Assembly (NCBI RefSeq): GCF_039904985.1
Contig: NZ_CP157005.1
Span: 2,976,001 to 3,040,000 of the forward strand
Source: Methylomonas sp. AM2-LC
GTDB lineage: Bacteria; Pseudomonadota; Gammaproteobacteria; Methylococcales; Methylomonadaceae
Direction of reading: 5' to 3'
Length of the DNA: 64,000 nucleotides
Of the stretch, positions 1 to 9,188 are shown piece after piece. Numbering within the stretch: the first letter of the stretch is position 1; each line of letters starts with the position of its first letter. The translations under genes were made by a program, and so were the position numbers. Under the pieces are notes generated by a model. It was not told the origin of the DNA and ran no database searches. It was given only the letters and a program-made list of their open reading frames with translations.

Positions 1-2
1 CA

Positions 3-566
3 TCATACTTTTCCTGAATTAAACCATTTTAGTTCCAGGCATTCTCGTAAACCCAGCCTAGCCCGGTGCAGATATACGCGGCAGGCGCTATGGCTAATAT
101 CCATATCCACGCATATTTCCTCGGCTTCAAGACCAACCATTTCGCGTAACATAAAAGCTCGTGCGTGTGGTGCCGGTAAGTTTTTTTGGCACCACTCAAA
201 AATCAGCCAAAACTGATTTTGCTCTAAAGCATGATCAGGTTCTTTCCAGGAACTGGGTGTACCTATCCAATGACCGGCTGCGTTAAATAACAGTTTTTCA
301 ATAGCTTGGTCAGGATTATCTTCATCGACTTGTATGTCTATGCAATCCAGTTTCTGAACTGCACGATAATGGTCGGCAATTTTATGTTTAAGGATGCCGA
401 TTAACCAAGTCTTAACTGCGGATTCGTTTCGAAAATTGCTCTCTGCTTGCAGAGCTGCCAATAGAGTTTCCTGGACAGCATCTTCTGCGATAGCCTCATT
501 CTGCACTTGTAATAGAGCGTAACGGACTAGCATTTCCCGATAGTTTTTTATTTGGGCTTTATCCAT
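3..566 (-). CDS. ECF-type RNA polymerase sigma factor closing the copper-RiPP operon
   Basis: A 187-aa sigma-70 family factor of ECF size. Region 2 lies at about residues 10-75 (IAEDAVQETLLAAL, then SWLIGILKHKIADHYR). Region 4 HTH is at about 130-180 (LREMVGLEAEEICVDMDIS, then ACRVYLHRARLGLRECL). Its start overlaps the end of the DoxX gene by 19 bp, so it is translationally coupled to the RiPP genes. Known: many bufferin/gig operons are controlled by an ECF factor with a membrane anti-sigma. Inference: this factor drives the operon from the candidate promoter upstream of the precursor gene, an autogenous loop. The anti-sigma gene is not seen and would lie beyond the window edge. The stop codon is at 3-5, so the gene is complete. 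Confidence 0.88.
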   Translation of the reverse strand: MDKAQIKNYREMLVRYALLQVQNEAIAEDAVQETLLAALQAESNFRNESAVKTWLIGILKHKIADHYRAVQKLDCIDIQVDEDNPDQAIEKLLFNAAGHWIGTPSSWKEPDHALEQNQFWLIFEWCQKNLPAPHARAFMLREMVGLEAEEICVDMDISHSACRVYLHRARLGLRECLELKWFNSGKV

Positions 567-1108
567 TTAGTGGCTGGCTCATTACGGTAAAAAAGCCACG
601 CATCCAAACTTAATTTTCCTGCGCCGCTAAATACTAATGATACTAGCATGAAAACATAGATCAACGGCAATTTATAGTTTCCGTAGCCCTGATCGGTAAA
701 CACATAGCCTTTCCATAATTCCTGCAGGGTATGCCATTCAGTTGGCCAATGCACCGTTGCAATGGCGATAAGGGTTAATACAATTAAAGCTAAACTAAAA
801 AAACGGGTGGCTAAACCTAGTATCAAGGTAATAGGCCCAATTATTTCTAAGCCCGTGGAAAGCATCCAATTCATATCGGCTGATAATAAATTGAATGGGA
901 ACGGAAACACCAATTCAGAGAACCAGTTTTCGCCCGATAACTTTTCTAATCCGGCTTCTAAAAATTCATAAGCTAAGAATAATCTAAGTGCTAGTGGTGC
1001 ATAGGTGTTGCCCTCATAGTTTAGCCAACATTGGATGCATTTAGGGAACACTAGAAATGGTGCTAAAGAACCACGCTTGCATGTAGATGAATTGCTGCTA
1101 GGATTCAT
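548..1108 (-). CDS. hvfX: DoxX-family membrane protein (HvfX/GigT-like)
   Basis: An integral membrane protein of about 186 aa with DoxX signatures: RLFLAYEFLEAGLEKLSGENWF region near residue 45, then hydrophobic segments at about 85-120 and 150-170. DoxX members are a standard component of MNIO/DUF2063 copper-RiPP operons, where they are called GigT or HvfX; their biochemical role is unsettled, possibly redox or copper-linked. The gene sits between the DUF2063 gene and the sigma-factor gene with overlaps on both sides. A GTG at 1118-1120 overlaps the upstream stop as GTGA. I prefer the ATG at 1106-1108 because an AAGTGAG sequence lies a suitable distance upstream. The family call is firm; the symbol is by context. 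Confidence 0.85.
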   Translation of the reverse strand: MNPSSNSSTCKRGSLAPFLVFPKCIQCWLNYEGNTYAPLALRLFLAYEFLEAGLEKLSGENWFSELVFPFPFNLLSADMNWMLSTGLEIIGPITLILGLATRFFSLALIVLTLIAIATVHWPTEWHTLQELWKGYVFTDQGYGNYKLPLIYVFMLVSLVFSGAGKLSLDAWLFYRNEPATKWIKPK

Positions 1109-1116
1109 AAATTGAC

Positions 1117-1860
1117 TCACTTGATAGTTGCGCCCAGAATGGCGCCTTGTTGTATTAAATTGTTTAAGGTATCAATACCATAACTTAACAGTACAGCAGG
1201 ATCACTTTGTTCCAGTTCCTGTGCAATTTGTGCAATGGCACTGACTAGCGTACCGCCGCTTTTGTGTAAAATTTCCAGTAAACGACAAGTTGCCTGTTGA
1301 CATTCGATAAACTGCACATTTTCATCTCTATCTCTAAAACCCAATATATGGATTGGCTCTGTAGATGGGTGAGTAAATTGATAGTTGGCGTCGATACAAT
1401 GAACCGGATAATCGTAATGCAATATCACAAAAACGGGCGCAAAAATCGGGCTGGCTACCTGCCAGTCCAGTGCAGCCGTCTCTGTTTCAATGTTTACCGT
1501 ATCAGCCTCCGCAATGGCTAACACCAGCTCTACCCATTCAAAATGGGCTAATTCGAATAAATAGGGTTGGATGGGTTTAGTTTGTAAAAACCCTATAAAC
1601 TCATCTGGTAACTGCCGATACAATGGCGATTGACAACGATGTTCGGCAATAAACGCTTTCAGCAAATGTTGCCATGCGCTCTCCCCCAACAGGGAATGGG
1701 TAACTGGAAAGCAGCGTTGTAAACTGTCATTAAATCTATTATTCAGTAACTCTCTATAAATATTGCTACGTTCAGCATCATAACCAGCTGGTAAAGCTGC
1801 ACAGTTGGGATTACGTAAATGCGCTAAAAACTGTTGTTGTTCGCGTTTAAACTCTGCCAT
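1117..1860 (-). CDS. hvfC: DUF2063 partner protein of the MNIO maturase (HvfC/BufC type)
   Basis: About 247 aa of the DUF2063 family, which accompanies DUF692 enzymes and is thought to present the precursor peptide to the maturase. The N-terminal helix region (FKREQQQFLAHLRNPN) followed by YRELLNNRFNDSLQRCFPVT is typical of the family. The longest frame begins at 1902, but the ATG at 1858-1860 is preceded by GGAGG with a 5-nt spacer, so I use that start; it overlaps the end of the maturase gene by 14 bp. Operon order (precursor, maturase, partner, DoxX, sigma) supports the function. Contribution to catalysis is inferred from the family only. Confidence 0.9.
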   Translation of the reverse strand: MAEFKREQQQFLAHLRNPNCAALPAGYDAERSNIYRELLNNRFNDSLQRCFPVTHSLLGESAWQHLLKAFIAEHRCQSPLYRQLPDEFIGFLQTKPIQPYLFELAHFEWVELVLAIAEADTVNIETETAALDWQVASPIFAPVFVILHYDYPVHCIDANYQFTHPSTEPIHILGFRDRDENVQFIECQQATCRLLEILHKSGGTLVSAIAQIAQELEQSDPAVLLSYGIDTLNNLIQQGAILGATIK

Positions 1861-2689
1861 GCATCCCTCCGTTATTGCGTTGTAAGCTAGCAATATGCTC
1901 AATTTCTGTTAACAATTCCACCAAGGGTGGTAGATTAAAATCGCGTTCTAACAGACAGGGAAACACCCCAAATTTTTTATAGGCCAAATCCAATAGCGCC
2001 CATACTGGAACACAAGTTGCCTGACCATGTGTATCGATAATGACACCAGACTTATCCAGCTCGTGTCCAGCCACGTGTCCGTAAACCACGCGTTCGCTCG
2101 GTAAACTATTTATAAACTGTGTAGCATCGTAATGATGATTCAGGCTGTTGACATAGACATTGTTAATATCAAGATGCAAAGCACAATCTGTTTCGTCAAG
2201 CACCGCATTAATAAACGCCAGCTCGTCCATATCCGCCCAAACAGGCTTTACATAATAAGATGGGTTTTCCAGCGCAATCGGCCGCTCCAGTATGTCTTGT
2301 GCGATACGCATGCGCTCGGCAACATGCCGCACTGCCTCTTCTGTAAACGGGATGGGAAAAAGATCATACAGATGCCCTTCATCGCTGCAATAACTTAAAT
2401 GTTCGCTATACAATGCCATGTGATGAGTATCTAAAAACGCTTTTAGCCGCTGTAAAAAGGCGACATCCAACTCTGCAGGCCCGCCAATCGATAACGACAA
2501 GCCGTGCGCAACGAAAGAATACTCCTCTGTCAGCTGCCGAAAAATTTTGCCTTGTTTGCCACCAATATCTATCCAATTTTCAGGGGAAACTTCAAAAAAA
2601 TTGATGCAGTCTGGAACATCCGCTTCAAAAGCAGATAACAGCTCACGGCGCAAACCTAAGCCTGCACCAGATAGTGTAATGTGTTTCAT
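1847..2689 (-). CDS. hvfB: DUF692/MNIO multinuclear iron oxidase, RiPP maturase
   Basis: A 280-aa DUF692 protein (multinuclear non-haem iron oxidases, TIM-barrel). Candidate metal ligands in the usual order are visible: VAHGLSLSIGG, SEHLSYC, ENPSYY, LHLDINNVYVN, YGHVAGHE, IDTHGQ and LLERD. Known members (MbnB, TglH, BufB, HvfB) oxidise cysteine residues of peptide precursors, giving oxazolone/thioamide or thiooxazole groups that bind copper. The peptide encoded immediately upstream carries five cysteine motifs and is the obvious substrate. The C-terminus overlaps the DUF2063 gene. A GGGG sequence about 13 nt upstream of the ATG is a weak ribosome site, consistent with lower expression than the precursor. 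Confidence 0.95.
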   Translation of the reverse strand: MKHITLSGAGLGLRRELLSAFEADVPDCINFFEVSPENWIDIGGKQGKIFRQLTEEYSFVAHGLSLSIGGPAELDVAFLQRLKAFLDTHHMALYSEHLSYCSDEGHLYDLFPIPFTEEAVRHVAERMRIAQDILERPIALENPSYYVKPVWADMDELAFINAVLDETDCALHLDINNVYVNSLNHHYDATQFINSLPSERVVYGHVAGHELDKSGVIIDTHGQATCVPVWALLDLAYKKFGVFPCLLERDFNLPPLVELLTEIEHIASLQRNNGGMHGRV

Positions 2690-2844
2690 CAGTAAGCTAC
2701 CCCGCTAAAACCGAAGGATGGCACATGAATGGCACGCACAACGATCTATGTATTAACGGTGTATGTGGATGGTGAGTTATGCTGAACTTACTTTGAAATT
2801 TGCAAATCGTAGACATTTTAAACTCCGCTACGGATCGAAATAAA

Positions 2845-2869
2845 ATCGCCGATAATCACTATCGGCGAT
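2845..2869 (-). terminator. Intergenic hairpin/terminator between precursor and maturase genes
   Basis: A perfect 10-bp inverted repeat, ATCGCCGATA (2845-2854) and TATCGGCGAT (2860-2869), with a 5-nt loop. Read on the minus strand it is followed by TTTTATTT, the layout of a Rho-independent terminator. It lies just after the precursor stop codon and before the maturase start. Leaky termination here would give much more precursor transcript than enzyme transcript; that consequence is inference. Confidence 0.75.
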
Positions 2870-2889
2870 ACCTAACAGCGTTTTTACCT

Positions 2890-3219
2890 TTATTTAGGCG
2901 CTTCGCTAGAGTCAGTTTCTTTCGTTTTATCAGCACCACATTTGGCTTCTGACATTTTTGCTTTATCGGCACCACATTTAGCTTCTTTCATTTTTGCTTT
3001 GTCAGCACCACATTTTGCCTCTTTCATTTTTTCTTTATTAGCACCACATTTAGCTTCACCACATTTGCCTTCTTTGACTTTATCAGCTTCTGCAAACATC
3101 TGCGGTGCGTTGATTTTTTGCATACCAAACGGATTTTGTTGAGCATGTAATAATGGGCTGGCGGTTAACAGAGTTGCCATGGTACCGCCAAGTGTCAATG
3201 CTAAGTTTCTTTTGTTCAT
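2890..3219 (-). CDS. hvfA: Copper-RiPP precursor (bufferin/HvfA-like) with five E(G/A)KCG motifs
   Basis: A 109-aa exported precursor. Residues 1-27 form a Sec signal peptide ending near LLHAQ. The mature part holds exactly five cysteines, C53, C58, C70, C82 and C94: one EGKCG followed by four EAKCG. From residue 55 the sequence is a 12-residue tandem repeat with unit EAKCGADKAKMK and a lysine/alanine-rich linker; the tail is acidic. Known: EGKCG cysteines in HvfA/bufferin peptides are oxidised by DUF692 enzymes and then bind copper in the periplasm. The maturase genes lie directly downstream. AGAGG precedes the ATG by about 10 nt. The EAKCG variant and the regular spacing distinguish it from the plain EGKCG type. 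Modification chemistry is inferred. Confidence 0.9.
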   Translation of the reverse strand: MNKRNLALTLGGTMATLLTASPLLHAQQNPFGMQKINAPQMFAEADKVKEGKCGEAKCGANKEKMKEAKCGADKAKMKEAKCGADKAKMSEAKCGADKTKETDSSEAPK

Positions 3220-3287
3220 AATGATAAGCCTCTTAAAGTAAATAAATAGAAGATTAGAAAAGCAATTTTTGCTTCCCTGACTTATCA

Positions 3288-3313
3288 GTCGGAATAATCG
3301 TTATTTTGTTACA
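3288..3313 (-). promoter_or_regulatory. Candidate ECF-sigma promoter of the copper-RiPP operon
   Basis: On the minus strand GTAAC (within TGTAAC) is followed after 16 nt by CGAC, about 70 bp upstream of the precursor start. This resembles the GTAAC-N16-CGAA layout reported for SigF-type ECF promoters. The sigma gene at the end of the operon is the natural candidate regulator. No second copy was confirmed, so the assignment rests on one site. Confidence 0.4.
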
Positions 3314-3940
3314 AATAAAATGAATTTTTTGTGATTTATTTTTATGGGGTGCAACTACGGGTGTAAGCCAAGTGAGTCACTCCTTGCTTTTGATCGCTTT
3401 TGGTTTGACATTTCTTGTGTTGTGCAAACCCATTGCGAGCTTCGTCGCTATCGCTGTTTTATGAAGACAAACAACTCAATAAGTGAATAGTGGTGAACCA
3501 ATCTGAACAAAAATAGGTAGTCGCTAAATAAGGCTATGGTTGTTACGATACATTATGAAGCTAGTCAAACCAGGCGTTGCTCATGCCCTTCTATCCCACA
3601 CGACATTCTATTTATAAAGAATAACAGACAGACCACTTTTTAATCCGAAGTTGCCTCTAATCGATACCTAGGCCAGAGAAAAGGCTCTTAGCAAAATAGC
3701 AGCAGAATACACACTAGACCAAAACAATAGTACGGAAGAGATATACTTATAATCGATGTTAAATTGTTTTTTTAGCCAATACATGCTTGTAAGACTTTTA
3801 TATTTACTCGTTTTCAACAGCATCTGTAATTGCCATAAATCGTTAATGATTAATATTAATTAACTGACAACTTTAATGTAAAAAAAGCCGGTGTTACCCG
3901 GCTGTCAGTTATCAGGCAAAAGGTAAATTGCACTTTTAAG
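3314..3940. other. Intergenic region without a recognised gene
   Basis: AT-rich DNA upstream of the copper-RiPP operon. No open frame with a convincing ribosome site or family resemblance was found. The only feature seen is the minus-strand terminator at 3880-3903 that ends the neighbouring small gene. Confidence 0.5.
3880..3903 (-). terminator. Rho-independent terminator after the 71-aa gene
   Basis: AGCCGG (3886-3891) and CCGGCT (3898-3903) form a GC-rich stem with a 6-nt loop. Reading on the minus strand it is followed by a run of seven T. It lies 37 bp after the stop of the 71-aa gene on the same strand. Confidence 0.75.
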
Positions 3941-4156
3941 TTATTGAAAGCCGGTACTGTTTTTATATCCAAACACCACCAATTCAATGCTCATCTCACG
4001 ATTATCCAGAGTATCGTCCAGTTCCTCAAAGCCAACACTTAACCATGACTTGTGTTTACCCTTGGCAAGTTTAAATTTAGCCACTGACTTTCCTTTCCCG
4101 TCTGGGAGTGGATCACCTGTCATTTCTGGATGGTATCGGTGTTTCTTTGCAGACAT
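3941..4156 (-). CDS. Small hypothetical protein, 71 aa
   Basis: A 71-aa protein, lysine-rich in the N-terminal half (MSAKKHRYHPE, KGKSVAKFKLAKGKHK) and acidic in the middle (FEELDDTLDN). No signal peptide or membrane segment is visible. AAGGAG lies 8 nt upstream of the ATG and a good terminator follows the stop, so expression is likely. I do not recognise the family. An 11-bp palindrome lies about 65 bp upstream in the region shared with the divergent exported-protein gene. Confidence 0.7.
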   Translation of the reverse strand: MSAKKHRYHPEMTGDPLPDGKGKSVAKFKLAKGKHKSWLSVGFEELDDTLDNREMSIELVVFGYKNSTGFQ

Positions 4157-5141: not shown

Positions 5142-6953
5142 ATGCTAGAAAAATCTATTGGCGAATCATCCGCAATCTTAAATAGCAACTTCATAGCCAT
5201 CGTGATAGTCAAGGACATGCATATTGTATGGGCCAATTCAGTCATGCATTTGATCTTTGATTACGAGCCTGATGAATTGGTAGGACACCCTATCCGTAAG
5301 CTATTTTTCGATCAGGACAGCTACGCAGCGTTCGATAAGGACGTTTATTCAGCCATCCAGAAAAATACAATCTATTCTGGAATCCTTCCGTTGAAACGCA
5401 AGGATAATACTAAGGGAATATATGAATTCAATTTCTCACGCTTCGTGGATGACGCCGATAAGGTGGTGGGGGTAATCGCTGACAGAACTGCAAGCCATTA
5501 TAGTGTTCAGCAACTAGAAGTAAGCGAATTACGCTATCGATCTGTCGTGGAAAACCAGACCGAGATCATCTCCCGGTTTTTGCCGGATGGCACCTTCGTG
5601 TTCGTCAATGATGTCTTTTGCCGACTATTCGGAAAATCAGCCGATGAACTGATAGGCCATCGTTGGCATCCAGTAGCCTATCCCGAGGATATTCCTATCA
5701 TCGAGGCCAGTCTAAGCAAGATGACACCCGACAACCCAGTTGTGACTATTGAAAATAGGGTATTCGTGGCCAATGGCGAAATTCTTTGGATGCAATTCTT
5801 TAATCGGGGGTTCTTCGATGCCGCCGGAACCCTAATGGAAACTCAATCGGTCGGTCGCGATATTACCAAGCTAAAGAATACCCAATTAAACCTGCGTGAA
5901 AGTGAGGAAGCATTGCAACGTGCCCAGTCGGTAGGACGAATCGGCAGTTTCTTGATGAGTAATGATACTGAAACCTTCAAGATCACAAAAGAAACAGCCA
6001 GACTGTTTGATCTTGAAGATAACGGCGTAACAACATTCGCTGAATGGTTTTCACGTGTACACCCCGATGACCAATGCCAAGTCGATACTACATGGCGAGC
6101 TGCTTTGCAGGGTTCTGCGTATGACATGACCTACCGCATTGTGGTTAAAGACCAGATCCGCTGGATCCGGGCCATAGCTGAACTGCAGTTCGATGGTAAT
6201 GGGCGACTGAGCAAAGCTGTCGGAACGGTGCAAGATATCTCCGACCTTAAGCAAATCGAGTCTAACCTTCGCGAAAGCGATGAACGACTTGAACTGGCAT
6301 TGTCGGGATCGGGACTGGTCTTATGGGACTGGAACATTCTAGAACGTAAGGTAACGGCAGGCAATCGCTGGTTCGAAATGCTCGGTTATACGAACGAGGA
6401 ACTGGGCAACGAAGAAGATGAATGGATGAATTTAATCAATCCCAAGGACTTTGATCGCTTCAAACAGAAAATTTCAGCTCATTTGAAGGGCGAAACCGCA
6501 AGCTTTTATAGCGAACACCAATTGCGGCACAAGTCTGGCCATTGGGTGTCTGTTGAAGCAAAAGGCAAGGTAACCCGTCGAGACAAAGACAACACGCCGT
6601 TGCGCATGGTAGGTACAATACTGGATATCACACAGCTCAAACGCCTGAATGAAGAAGGCATGGACTTGTTAAAGCAGATCGAGTCACTCATACGCGAGGG
6701 TTCATCACGCTTGCCAGTTTATGCAGCGAAAGATAATTCCGCCGAAAGCCTGACAAAACGCCAGCGACAAATTATTGGGATGATTGCTAACGGGATGACG
6801 TCGGTTGAAATCGGTAAGAAGCTGCACTTAGCCACACCAACCATCATCTCGCATCGGCGTAACCTGATGGCAAAGTTAGAACTTCATAGCACTGCTGAAG
6901 TCACGCGTTTCGCAATTGATCACGGTCTGCTTACAAGCAAAGAGCTCAGCTAA
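5142..6953 (+). CDS. Four-PAS sensor with LuxR-type DNA-binding domain
   Basis: A 603-aa cytoplasmic protein. Four PAS/PAC repeats lie at about residues 8-118, 127-245, 257-375 and 377-505. The C-terminal LuxR/GerE HTH is at about 538-600 (LTKRQRQIIGMIANGMTSVEIGKKL region). There is no histidine kinase, receiver, GGDEF or membrane segment. The protein therefore looks like a one-component regulator coupling a PAS-sensed signal (ligand, redox or partner protein) directly to transcription. The start ATG lacks a strong ribosome site. It precedes a PAS kinase block on the same strand, which makes a joint signalling role plausible but unproven. Target genes cannot be named. Confidence 0.88.
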   Translation: MLEKSIGESSAILNSNFIAIVIVKDMHIVWANSVMHLIFDYEPDELVGHPIRKLFFDQDSYAAFDKDVYSAIQKNTIYSGILPLKRKDNTKGIYEFNFSRFVDDADKVVGVIADRTASHYSVQQLEVSELRYRSVVENQTEIISRFLPDGTFVFVNDVFCRLFGKSADELIGHRWHPVAYPEDIPIIEASLSKMTPDNPVVTIENRVFVANGEILWMQFFNRGFFDAAGTLMETQSVGRDITKLKNTQLNLRESEEALQRAQSVGRIGSFLMSNDTETFKITKETARLFDLEDNGVTTFAEWFSRVHPDDQCQVDTTWRAALQGSAYDMTYRIVVKDQIRWIRAIAELQFDGNGRLSKAVGTVQDISDLKQIESNLRESDERLELALSGSGLVLWDWNILERKVTAGNRWFEMLGYTNEELGNEEDEWMNLINPKDFDRFKQKISAHLKGETASFYSEHQLRHKSGHWVSVEAKGKVTRRDKDNTPLRMVGTILDITQLKRLNEEGMDLLKQIESLIREGSSRLPVYAAKDNSAESLTKRQRQIIGMIANGMTSVEIGKKLHLATPTIISHRRNLMAKLELHSTAEVTRFAIDHGLLTSKELS

Positions 6954-7613: not shown

Positions 7614-9188
7614 GTGACGATTAGTTTTCATGAAAAGATGGTAACAATGCAGCCAAAAATCACTTATCGGCGAATTACAATATTCGTTATTGCCGTCATA
7701 ATACCGGTTATTGCAACCATGCTGCAATTATGGTTGATGCACTTTATTCCCCACACAACTTGGTTGCTACTGTATCCAGCAGTGTTCATCAGCGCATGGC
7801 TGGGTGGAGTTTGGGGGGGCATCGTTGCCAGCATTTTCGCCGCTCTACTAGGCGTTTACTTTTTTATTCCCCCTTTCCACTCATTTCAGTTGTCTGACCC
7901 TAACTACGCTTATTCGATTGTTTTATTCATCGTGATGGGTGTATTTTTTGGGTTGATTTTCGAAAAACTCAAACGCAGTGAAAACGCCCTGCAAAAATTA
8001 GCTGCAATACAAATAAAATCAGACCAAGAACGCTTGGCTATGGTGTTGGCATCATCGCAAGCCGGTCTATGGGAATGGTCGTTGGCGGACAATCGGGTTA
8101 CCTGGTCCGATACACTACGCAAGTTGTATGGGCTAGATATGACCACACCGTCCAGCTACGACAATTGGCTAGCCACTATCTACGCAGAGGATCAGGCCTC
8201 TGTGGAGCAAGAATTGTTGGATGCAGTCAATAAAGGCCATGAATTTAGCCTGGAATGGCGAGTCGCTAATCGACCCGAAAACCAGCAACAATGGTTAATG
8301 TCCAATGGCAAACCGGTGCGCGATAAAAAGGACAACATCCTTTTCTATCGCGGCATCGTCCTGGATATTACCCAGCGCCGCCGTCAAGAGCTAGCCATTA
8401 GCAACAGCGAACGAGAGTTCCGCTTGCTGGCCGATGCAATGCCGCAAATTGTCTGGATCGCCGATACCAATGGCTTAAATACTTTTTTCAACCAACAATG
8501 GGTCGATTATACCGGTTTGTCATTTGAGGAAAGTTTTGGTCATGGTTGGAATATTCCGTTTCACCCCGAGGATCAGCAATTGGCATGGGAGGCTTGGCAA
8601 AAGGCTGTACATAGTCATGCCGTCTATTCGCGTGAATGCCGTTTGCGCCGATTTGACGGTGAGTATCGCTGGTGGTTAATTCGCGGCGTGCCCATTAAGA
8701 ATGAAGAGGGTCAGATAGGAAAATGGTTTGGTACCTGCACTGATATTCACGACCTCAAGTTGACACAGGCAAGCTTAAAAAAATCTGAAAACCGTTATCG
8801 GCAGTTGTTTGAGGCCAATCCTCTGCCGTTGTGGATTTATGACACTGAAACTCTGGCTTTCTTGGATGTTAACGTGGCGGCCATTGCCAACTATGGATAC
8901 AGCCGGAATGAGTTTTTGGCGATGACCATCACAGATATTGATCAGCAAAAAGTAGTCGATTTAGAGAAAAAGGCTGATGACGGCGCATCCTCAATGTCTA
9001 ACGTGCAATTGGATGGCAAAACCGTGGTTTGTCGTCAGCGGCGAAAAGACGGCGGTTATTTCTGGGCAGAACTTACCGGTCACCACTTGCCGCTCGAAGA
9101 GAGTCCGGCGGCGATCGTTTTAGCTCGCGATCTAACCGAGCAACGACAGGTCGAGCAAAAATTACAAGACAGCGAAGCCCGCTGGTAA
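7614..9188 (+). CDS. N-terminal part of a PAS hybrid histidine kinase, ended by in-frame TAA
   Basis: Encodes a DUF4118/KdpD-like membrane sensor (four hydrophobic segments, about residues 20-125, with LLYPAVFISAWLGGVWGG) and PAS domains at about 140-265, 268-390 and 395-515. It stops at TAA (9186-9188) right after SEARW. The next codons in the same frame read FALEGSEQGVWDWDI, the usual opening of the next PAS domain, and the frame runs on uninterrupted to 12998. A CAA to TAA change at 9186 (Gln to stop) would explain the break. Start is uncertain: GTG at 7614, or ATG at 7638 or 7647. Without the downstream kinase part this fragment has no output domain. A sequencing error is also possible. 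Confidence 0.75.
   Translation: MTISFHEKMVTMQPKITYRRITIFVIAVIIPVIATMLQLWLMHFIPHTTWLLLYPAVFISAWLGGVWGGIVASIFAALLGVYFFIPPFHSFQLSDPNYAYSIVLFIVMGVFFGLIFEKLKRSENALQKLAAIQIKSDQERLAMVLASSQAGLWEWSLADNRVTWSDTLRKLYGLDMTTPSSYDNWLATIYAEDQASVEQELLDAVNKGHEFSLEWRVANRPENQQQWLMSNGKPVRDKKDNILFYRGIVLDITQRRRQELAISNSEREFRLLADAMPQIVWIADTNGLNTFFNQQWVDYTGLSFEESFGHGWNIPFHPEDQQLAWEAWQKAVHSHAVYSRECRLRRFDGEYRWWLIRGVPIKNEEGQIGKWFGTCTDIHDLKLTQASLKKSENRYRQLFEANPLPLWIYDTETLAFLDVNVAAIANYGYSRNEFLAMTITDIDQQKVVDLEKKADDGASSMSNVQLDGKTVVCRQRRKDGGYFWAELTGHHLPLEESPAAIVLARDLTEQRQVEQKLQDSEARW

Follow-up and report, generated by a model that had tools for sequence, protein, structure and literature searches.

A probable sigma-E/MseR-type captophorin operon in Methylomonas sp. 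AM2-LC

The closest described relatives of the gene cluster analysed here, which lies at one edge of a 64,000-nucleotide stretch of the Methylomonas sp. AM2-LC genome (contig NZ_CP157005.1, positions 2,976,001 to 3,040,000; "the window" below), are the sigma-E operon of Neisseria, the oxazolin cluster HvfABC(X) of Haemophilus with the fontiphorin cluster FonABC, and the bufferin 1 cluster of Caulobacter. We take the Neisseria operon to include genes for an MNIO enzyme and an EGKCG precursor (gonophorin), in addition to the genes described for it. Work on ngoABC supports this view (PMC13097082; here and below, cited statements refer to the passages of each paper that were covered), and the gonococcal counterpart includes a DUF2063 protein, NGO1945 (PMC2954202). 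The meningococcal genes NMB2140-2145, with a DoxX-like gene, rpoE (sigma-E) and mseR directly after it, are cotranscribed on sigma-E overexpression (PMC2893595), and MseR, which carries Cys4 and His30x3Cys34x2Cys37, inhibits sigma-E (PMC2893595; PMC3240639). Characterised EGKCG peptides carry 5-thiooxazoles on their cysteines and bind copper (PMC13097082). In Caulobacter, sigma-F drives MNIO, DUF2063 and DoxX genes (PMC3511200); sigma and anti-sigma genes are reported for bufferin-1 clusters and, in the passages covered, are not listed for EGKCG clusters (PMC12452194).

The Methylomonas cluster is predicted to be an EGKCG-type captophorin (oxazolin) operon of six genes, hvfA-hvfB-hvfC-hvfX-ecf-mseR, in which ecf encodes an extracytoplasmic function (ECF) sigma factor and mseR its putative inhibitor. 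Its features, in window coordinates and in the order of transcription, are:

3284..3312, minus strand: predicted ECF promoter, GTAAC-N16-CGACTGAT, which begins 93 nt ahead of the start codon of hvfA
2890..3219, minus strand: hvfA-like precursor, 109 aa; NF050137 (KCGExKCG domain), 44.5 bits (cut-off 19.5)
1847..2689, minus strand: hvfB, MNIO maturase (formerly DUF692), 280 aa; NF003818, 396.8 bits (cut-off 360); PF05114, 333.4 bits; aligns to PDB 3bww
1117..1860, minus strand: hvfC, DUF2063 partner (PME1); NF050145, 234.2 bits (cut-off 142); PF09836, PF22106; PDB 3dee
548..1120, minus strand: hvfX, DoxX-family membrane protein, 190 aa; NF050144, 135.5 bits (cut-off 80); PF07681
3..566, minus strand: ECF sigma factor, 187 aa; TIGR02943, 209.6 bits (cut-off 162.2); Sigma70_r2, r4_2
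1..6, minus strand: first two codons of the MseR-like anti-sigma gene (zf-HC2, 61 aa), the remainder lying outside the window (genome C1:2975821-2976006)

The five genes within the window (3-3219) share the minus strand and follow one another as precursor, MNIO (DUF692), DUF2063, DoxX and ECF sigma, just where a first-pass annotation made from the sequence had placed them. Its family assignments were likewise right, with curated NCBIfam cut-offs passed; HvfB, HvfC, HvfX and the sigma factor, four of the five proteins, score above equivalog or hypothetical-equivalog cut-offs. Neighbouring genes overlap as it had described, except that hvfA and hvfB are separated by 200 nt. Its label "HvfABC/bufferin-type" was apt in the first half, the maturase passing the HvfB equivalog cut-off and the precursor being of the EGKCG/oxazolin kind; "bufferin" proved loose, as HvfB scores 256.2 bits against the BufB model NF050167 (cut-off 310) and the precursor has no Pfam match at E 0.1, the DUF2282 domain of bufferin 1 included. 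For hvfC, ATG 1860 is the more likely start, because GGAGGG precedes it (the frame extends to 1117-1902 if TTG 1902 is used), and hvfX would start at GTG 1120, with ATG 1108 as an alternative candidate.

The same annotation had called the operon complete. This was wrong, since the window edge cuts the anti-sigma gene (locus L003 7821-8006, where window base 1 is base 8001), leaving only its first six bases inside. The encoded protein matches NF052368 with 69.4 bits (cut-off 50) and PF13490 with 31.5 (cut-off 22.2), carries the C..HxxxCxxC signature, and its gene overlaps the sigma stop codon by 4 nt both here and in genome G023. MseR-like C..HxxxCxxC genes were found in 25/29 loci scanned, or in 25 of the 28 that have a sigma gene (the misses being L034, L039 and L057). 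With a highest 19-residue hydropathy value of 0.69, the anti-sigma factor is apparently soluble, and would thus sense the cytoplasm. The presence of this gene in the genome led us to drop the reading of an orphan sigma factor; a role of the N-terminal cysteines of HvfX as a substitute anti-sigma was also dropped, since the anti-sigma gene exists and these cysteines are not kept in all relatives.

The precursor has a signal-peptide-like start, MNKRNLALTLGGTMATLLTASPLLHA (judged by eye), and the five E(G/A)KCG cysteines noted in the first pass are indeed there, in motifs starting at residues 50, 55, 67, 79 and 91. These are arranged as EGKCGEAKCG followed by three EAKCG units at 12-residue spacing. 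In 100,000 shuffles of the sequence beyond residue 26, the number of such motifs did not exceed two, so that the five do not reflect chance of composition. Relatives are numerous, with 1577 proteins at E <=0.001 among 2600 candidates. In HvfB, R14-R15 and D250-F251 fall inside motifs and would correspond to Arg15/16 and Asp249/Phe250 of FonB. We also looked for covariation between the precursor motif and the HvfB residue after ERD (F, S or N, with D in one distant locus) and saw no clean pattern.

That the sigma factor encoded in the operon also controls it, as first proposed, is supported by a promoter-like site whose position is conserved. Here the site consists of a −35 element GTAACAAAA, a 12-nt spacer and a −10 element CGACTGAT; of the 12 hvfA loci examined, 11 have a GTAAC/G-N16-CGACT site that starts 84-93 nt ahead of the gene, and the miss (G054) belongs to another family. 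At least one hvfB was found in 36 of the 37 genomes of the genus, which yield 48 matches at E 1e-60: 12 of type 1, the type in the window (65-100% identity), and 36 of type 2 (53-60%), one in each of 36 genomes; 12/37 genomes also hold a sigma-type cluster. Over the 30 of these 48 matches covered by the promoter comparison, with 1500 nt searched upstream, a strict form of the site precedes 10/12 type-1 and 0/18 type-2 clusters, and a loose form 12/12 and 1/18. Strict hits across the 37 genomes lie before an hvfA-like gene in 13 of 22 cases, a count that includes one decayed cluster. The sites read GTAACA in this genome and in G023 and GTAAGG elsewhere before hvfA, a division paralleled by the sigma factors (71% identity, against 45-54% for other same-genus matches); sigma and promoter appear to split into two matched subtypes. 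Another pattern hit, at L084 (G026:C1:2843031), lies downstream of the sigma gene and ahead of a gene whose small product has a signal-like start and a single CxxC; this gene is a possible second member of the regulon.

The sequence itself shows the six genes, their order and families, and the conserved promoter-like site. These features suggest an autoregulated, stress-switched captophorin operon, to which we assign a probability of about 0.82 as regards gene set, chemistry class and sigma control; that the operon serves copper is probable, at a lesser confidence. At rest, the small zinc-finger anti-sigma protein would hold the ECF sigma factor. Thiol-reactive stress in the cytoplasm, from copper(I), another soft metal or an oxidant, would disturb the Cys/His zinc site of the anti-sigma protein and free the sigma factor, which would initiate at GTAAC-N16-CGACTGAT and raise expression of all six genes, its own and that of its inhibitor among them, in a positive feedback. 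HvfB and HvfC would turn the KCG cysteines of the precursor into 5-thiooxazoles, and the peptide, exported by Sec, would bind excess copper in the periplasm, with HvfX as an accessory membrane protein. We infer copper as the cargo, a thiol-reactive metal or oxidant as the signal, and the feedback; the thiooxazole chemistry and the sigma/anti-sigma control would carry over from the literature on relatives.

Several observations weigh against this interpretation. The precursor falls below the cut-off of the HvfA equivalog model NF050188 (25.9 bits, cut-off 95), and three of its five motifs stand alone. Hits of the promoter pattern do not exceed a reversed control, with 6 against 6 in this genome and 22 against 32 over the genus, so that only the placement of the site is informative; a search for a regulon by genome-wide pattern was accordingly rejected, the hvfA site being the only convincing one. 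Among 185 genomes of the class, by printed coordinates, the sigma gene and HvfC occur within 5 kb of each other only in G000, G143 and G187. In addition, peroxide, diamide and singlet oxygen all failed to elicit a response of sigma-E in meningococci (PMC2893595).

The isolated motifs bear directly on the chemistry, which the first-pass annotation had called undescribed. This holds for the exact peptide only, since EGKCG 5-thiooxazoles are published and FonBC modified an AKCGA double variant once (PMC13097082). The same enzyme pair modified a two-repeat substrate and failed on a one-repeat substrate, and for these reasons modification of the three isolated EAKCG sites is the least certain chemical point. 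The EGKCGEAKCG pair is the likeliest site of full modification. The operon might thus be expressed and its precursor modified only in part, with the isolated units, 12 residues apart, acting as spacer or as plain thiol ligands. The FonBC data come from another enzyme, however, and the HvfB encoded here may have adapted to the precursor of this operon; we consider partial modification doubtful.

The role of the operon is open to a different explanation, which overlaps with the one preferred here: the same genes, chemistry and switch could serve a response to oxidants or other soft metals, copper binding being incidental. Chromium and cadmium elicit a response of sigma-F in Caulobacter (PMC3511200), gonococci exposed to peroxide are reported to show increased NGO1947/1948 (PMC2893595), and the apparently cytoplasmic reach of the anti-sigma factor fits such a job. 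Set against this are the copper binding of characterised EGKCG peptides (PMC13097082) and the nature of the host, whose genome holds two AMO/pMMO-family genes and which is on that ground probably a methanotroph, likely to handle much copper. On balance an oxidant or soft-metal role seems unlikely. Far less probable still is a secreted copper-acquisition molecule like methanobactin: although the host looks like a methanotroph and MbnB and HvfB are both MNIO enzymes, HvfB reaches only 34.1 bits against the MbnB model TIGR04159 (cut-off 325), the control is that of an anti-sigma stress switch, and no receptor or exporter was recognised among the neighbouring open reading frames, which were read by eye with no dedicated search.

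The sigma factor was detected in 26 of 61 genomes, this one included, and a sigma scan of the genome contigs returned 2 loci only. It sits at the 3' end of hvfABCX only in this genome and in G023; among the other sigma-bearing genomes, several carry it a few kb from hvf genes and others show no hvf genes within the fetched stretch (<=13 kb). Class-wide, HvfC exceeds its cut-off in 65/185 genomes and the TIGR02943 sigma factor in 19/185; besides the three genomes named above in which the two lie within 5 kb, G193 has a further such pair, whose HvfC lies below the cut-off. The Methylomonas genome also contains a cluster of type 2:

L004 4523-7242 (C1:184000-196000): second hvf cluster, encoding HvfB, HvfC, a Cys-rich precursor of 150 aa and a protein read by eye as DedA-type

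Like the operon in the window, this cluster encodes HvfB and HvfC above their cut-offs and a Cys-rich precursor. It differs in that the precursor has mixed G/A/K/T/S-CG sites and a KCG-domain score of 18.5 (cut-off 19.5), and that the DedA-type gene lies between precursor and hvfB; no sigma match was found for it, nor an ECF site within 260 nt of the precursor. In G015, a decayed cluster (L076 1501-2215) keeps the promoter-like site and a hairpin; its precursor is reduced to one cysteine, its hvfX is without the usual start region, and the 3-kb locus has no hvfB or hvfC match.

Two hairpins accompany the transcript:

3256..3278, minus strand: hairpin AGGGAAGCAAAAATTGCTTTTCT at the predicted 5' end of the transcript, also scored as terminator-like
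2845..2869, minus strand: terminator-like hairpin between hvfA and hvfB, from the terminator scan

The first directly follows the −10 element and folds in 15/15 sequences, all of which were selected for carrying the promoter-like site; in G006 the lowest-energy fold pairs differently and the usual hairpin forms in a slightly shorter stretch. Its energies range from -8.8 to -25.7 kcal/mol, and 14% of 286 control 34-mers upstream of open reading frames reach -8.8. Folded singly against shuffles, 11/13 sequences had p <=0.013, with G032 (0.093) and G006 (0.167) above. Applying the start-site distance known from Neisseria (PMC2893595), the transcript would start at about window 3278, the first stem base. 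Paired changes include A-U to G-C (G008), A-U to U-A (G022), A-U to C-G (G015) and G-C to A-U (G019, G014). Covariation on rigid alignments was neither significant nor above shuffles; compensatory changes emerge chiefly from folding the sequences one by one, which favours pairing. Rfam gave no match in window 2500-4000 at E up to 0.1.

The terminator scan reported these two sites against 0.8 +/- 0.9 in shuffles. The hvfA-hvfB hairpin has a fold z of -3.65 and is a possible attenuator, a function that is a further reading for the 5' hairpin as well. At the corresponding place G023 has a hairpin that differs in sequence, with a z of -4.83. Jointly, the sigma-driven transcript might begin, in this genus, with a conserved 5' hairpin, an undescribed RNA element, operator or attenuator that tunes the operon, while the hvfA-hvfB hairpin of this genome and of G023 keeps the precursor in excess and sigma factor and promoter come in two matched subtypes; this combination is tentative, and we put it at somewhat less than even odds.

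A small open reading frame also lies between hvfA and hvfB (window 2697-2816, minus strand, 39 aa). Its G023 counterpart (L033 3745-3879, 44 aa) is rich in cysteine at the start and contains a hydrophobic stretch; apart from the opening MSxxCK that they share, the two are unlike. Divergent from the operon, window 5142-6953 encodes a protein in which several PAS domains are combined with a DNA-binding end of the LuxR type, and the convergent gene downstream of the operon is, as read by eye, a penicillin-binding protein.

The main enzyme of methanotrophs needs copper. Among the matches listed in the open-access literature, we found no description of such an operon in methanotrophs. With this locus, a probable methanotroph joins the bacteria that carry a complete captophorin operon of the sigma-E/MseR type, and it offers a non-pathogen in which the inducing signal of the sigma-E/MseR module could be tested. 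The near-universal second cluster and the sigma-type cluster of 12/37 genomes form a natural contrast for what a stress-controlled peptide adds. Each part, and the combination, has precedents, and the finding is mostly ordinary.

Among these precedents, Caulobacter bufferin 1 (sigma-F/NrsF) resembles the window operon in having MNIO, DUF2063 and DoxX genes under an ECF sigma factor, with a similar promoter, GTAACC-N16-CGAA (PMC3511200). Its precursor, however, is a DUF2282 protein, and six transmembrane segments are predicted for its NrsF, whereas the anti-sigma factor here is a small, apparently soluble zinc-finger protein. The likeness to Haemophilus HvfABC(X) and to FonABC lies in the HvfB, HvfC and HvfX equivalogs and the KCG repeat domain, all above their cut-offs. 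Unlike those clusters, the window operon has EAKCG in four of five sites, single motifs spaced at 12 residues, a precursor below the HvfA equivalog cut-off, and attached genes for an ECF sigma factor and its anti-sigma factor.

Neisseria NMB2140-2145 (NGO1948-1943 in gonococci) likewise combines in one operon a DoxX-like gene, an ECF sigma factor and, directly after it, a zinc-binding anti-sigma (ZAS) factor; the module here is of this type, with TIGR02943, NF052368 and HxxxCxxC all found. The Neisseria promoter (−35 GTMAGBWTT, 12-13 nt, −10 CGTCTAAH) fits that of Methylomonas (GTAACAAAA, 12 nt, CGACTGAT) in spacing, while the −35 departs from it in the second half and the −10 in part. The DoxX-like gene comes first in Neisseria and fourth here, and the two hosts belong to different bacterial classes. 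The link to a sigma factor would thus not be new: the full gene set resembles the autoregulated sigma-E operon of Neisseria.

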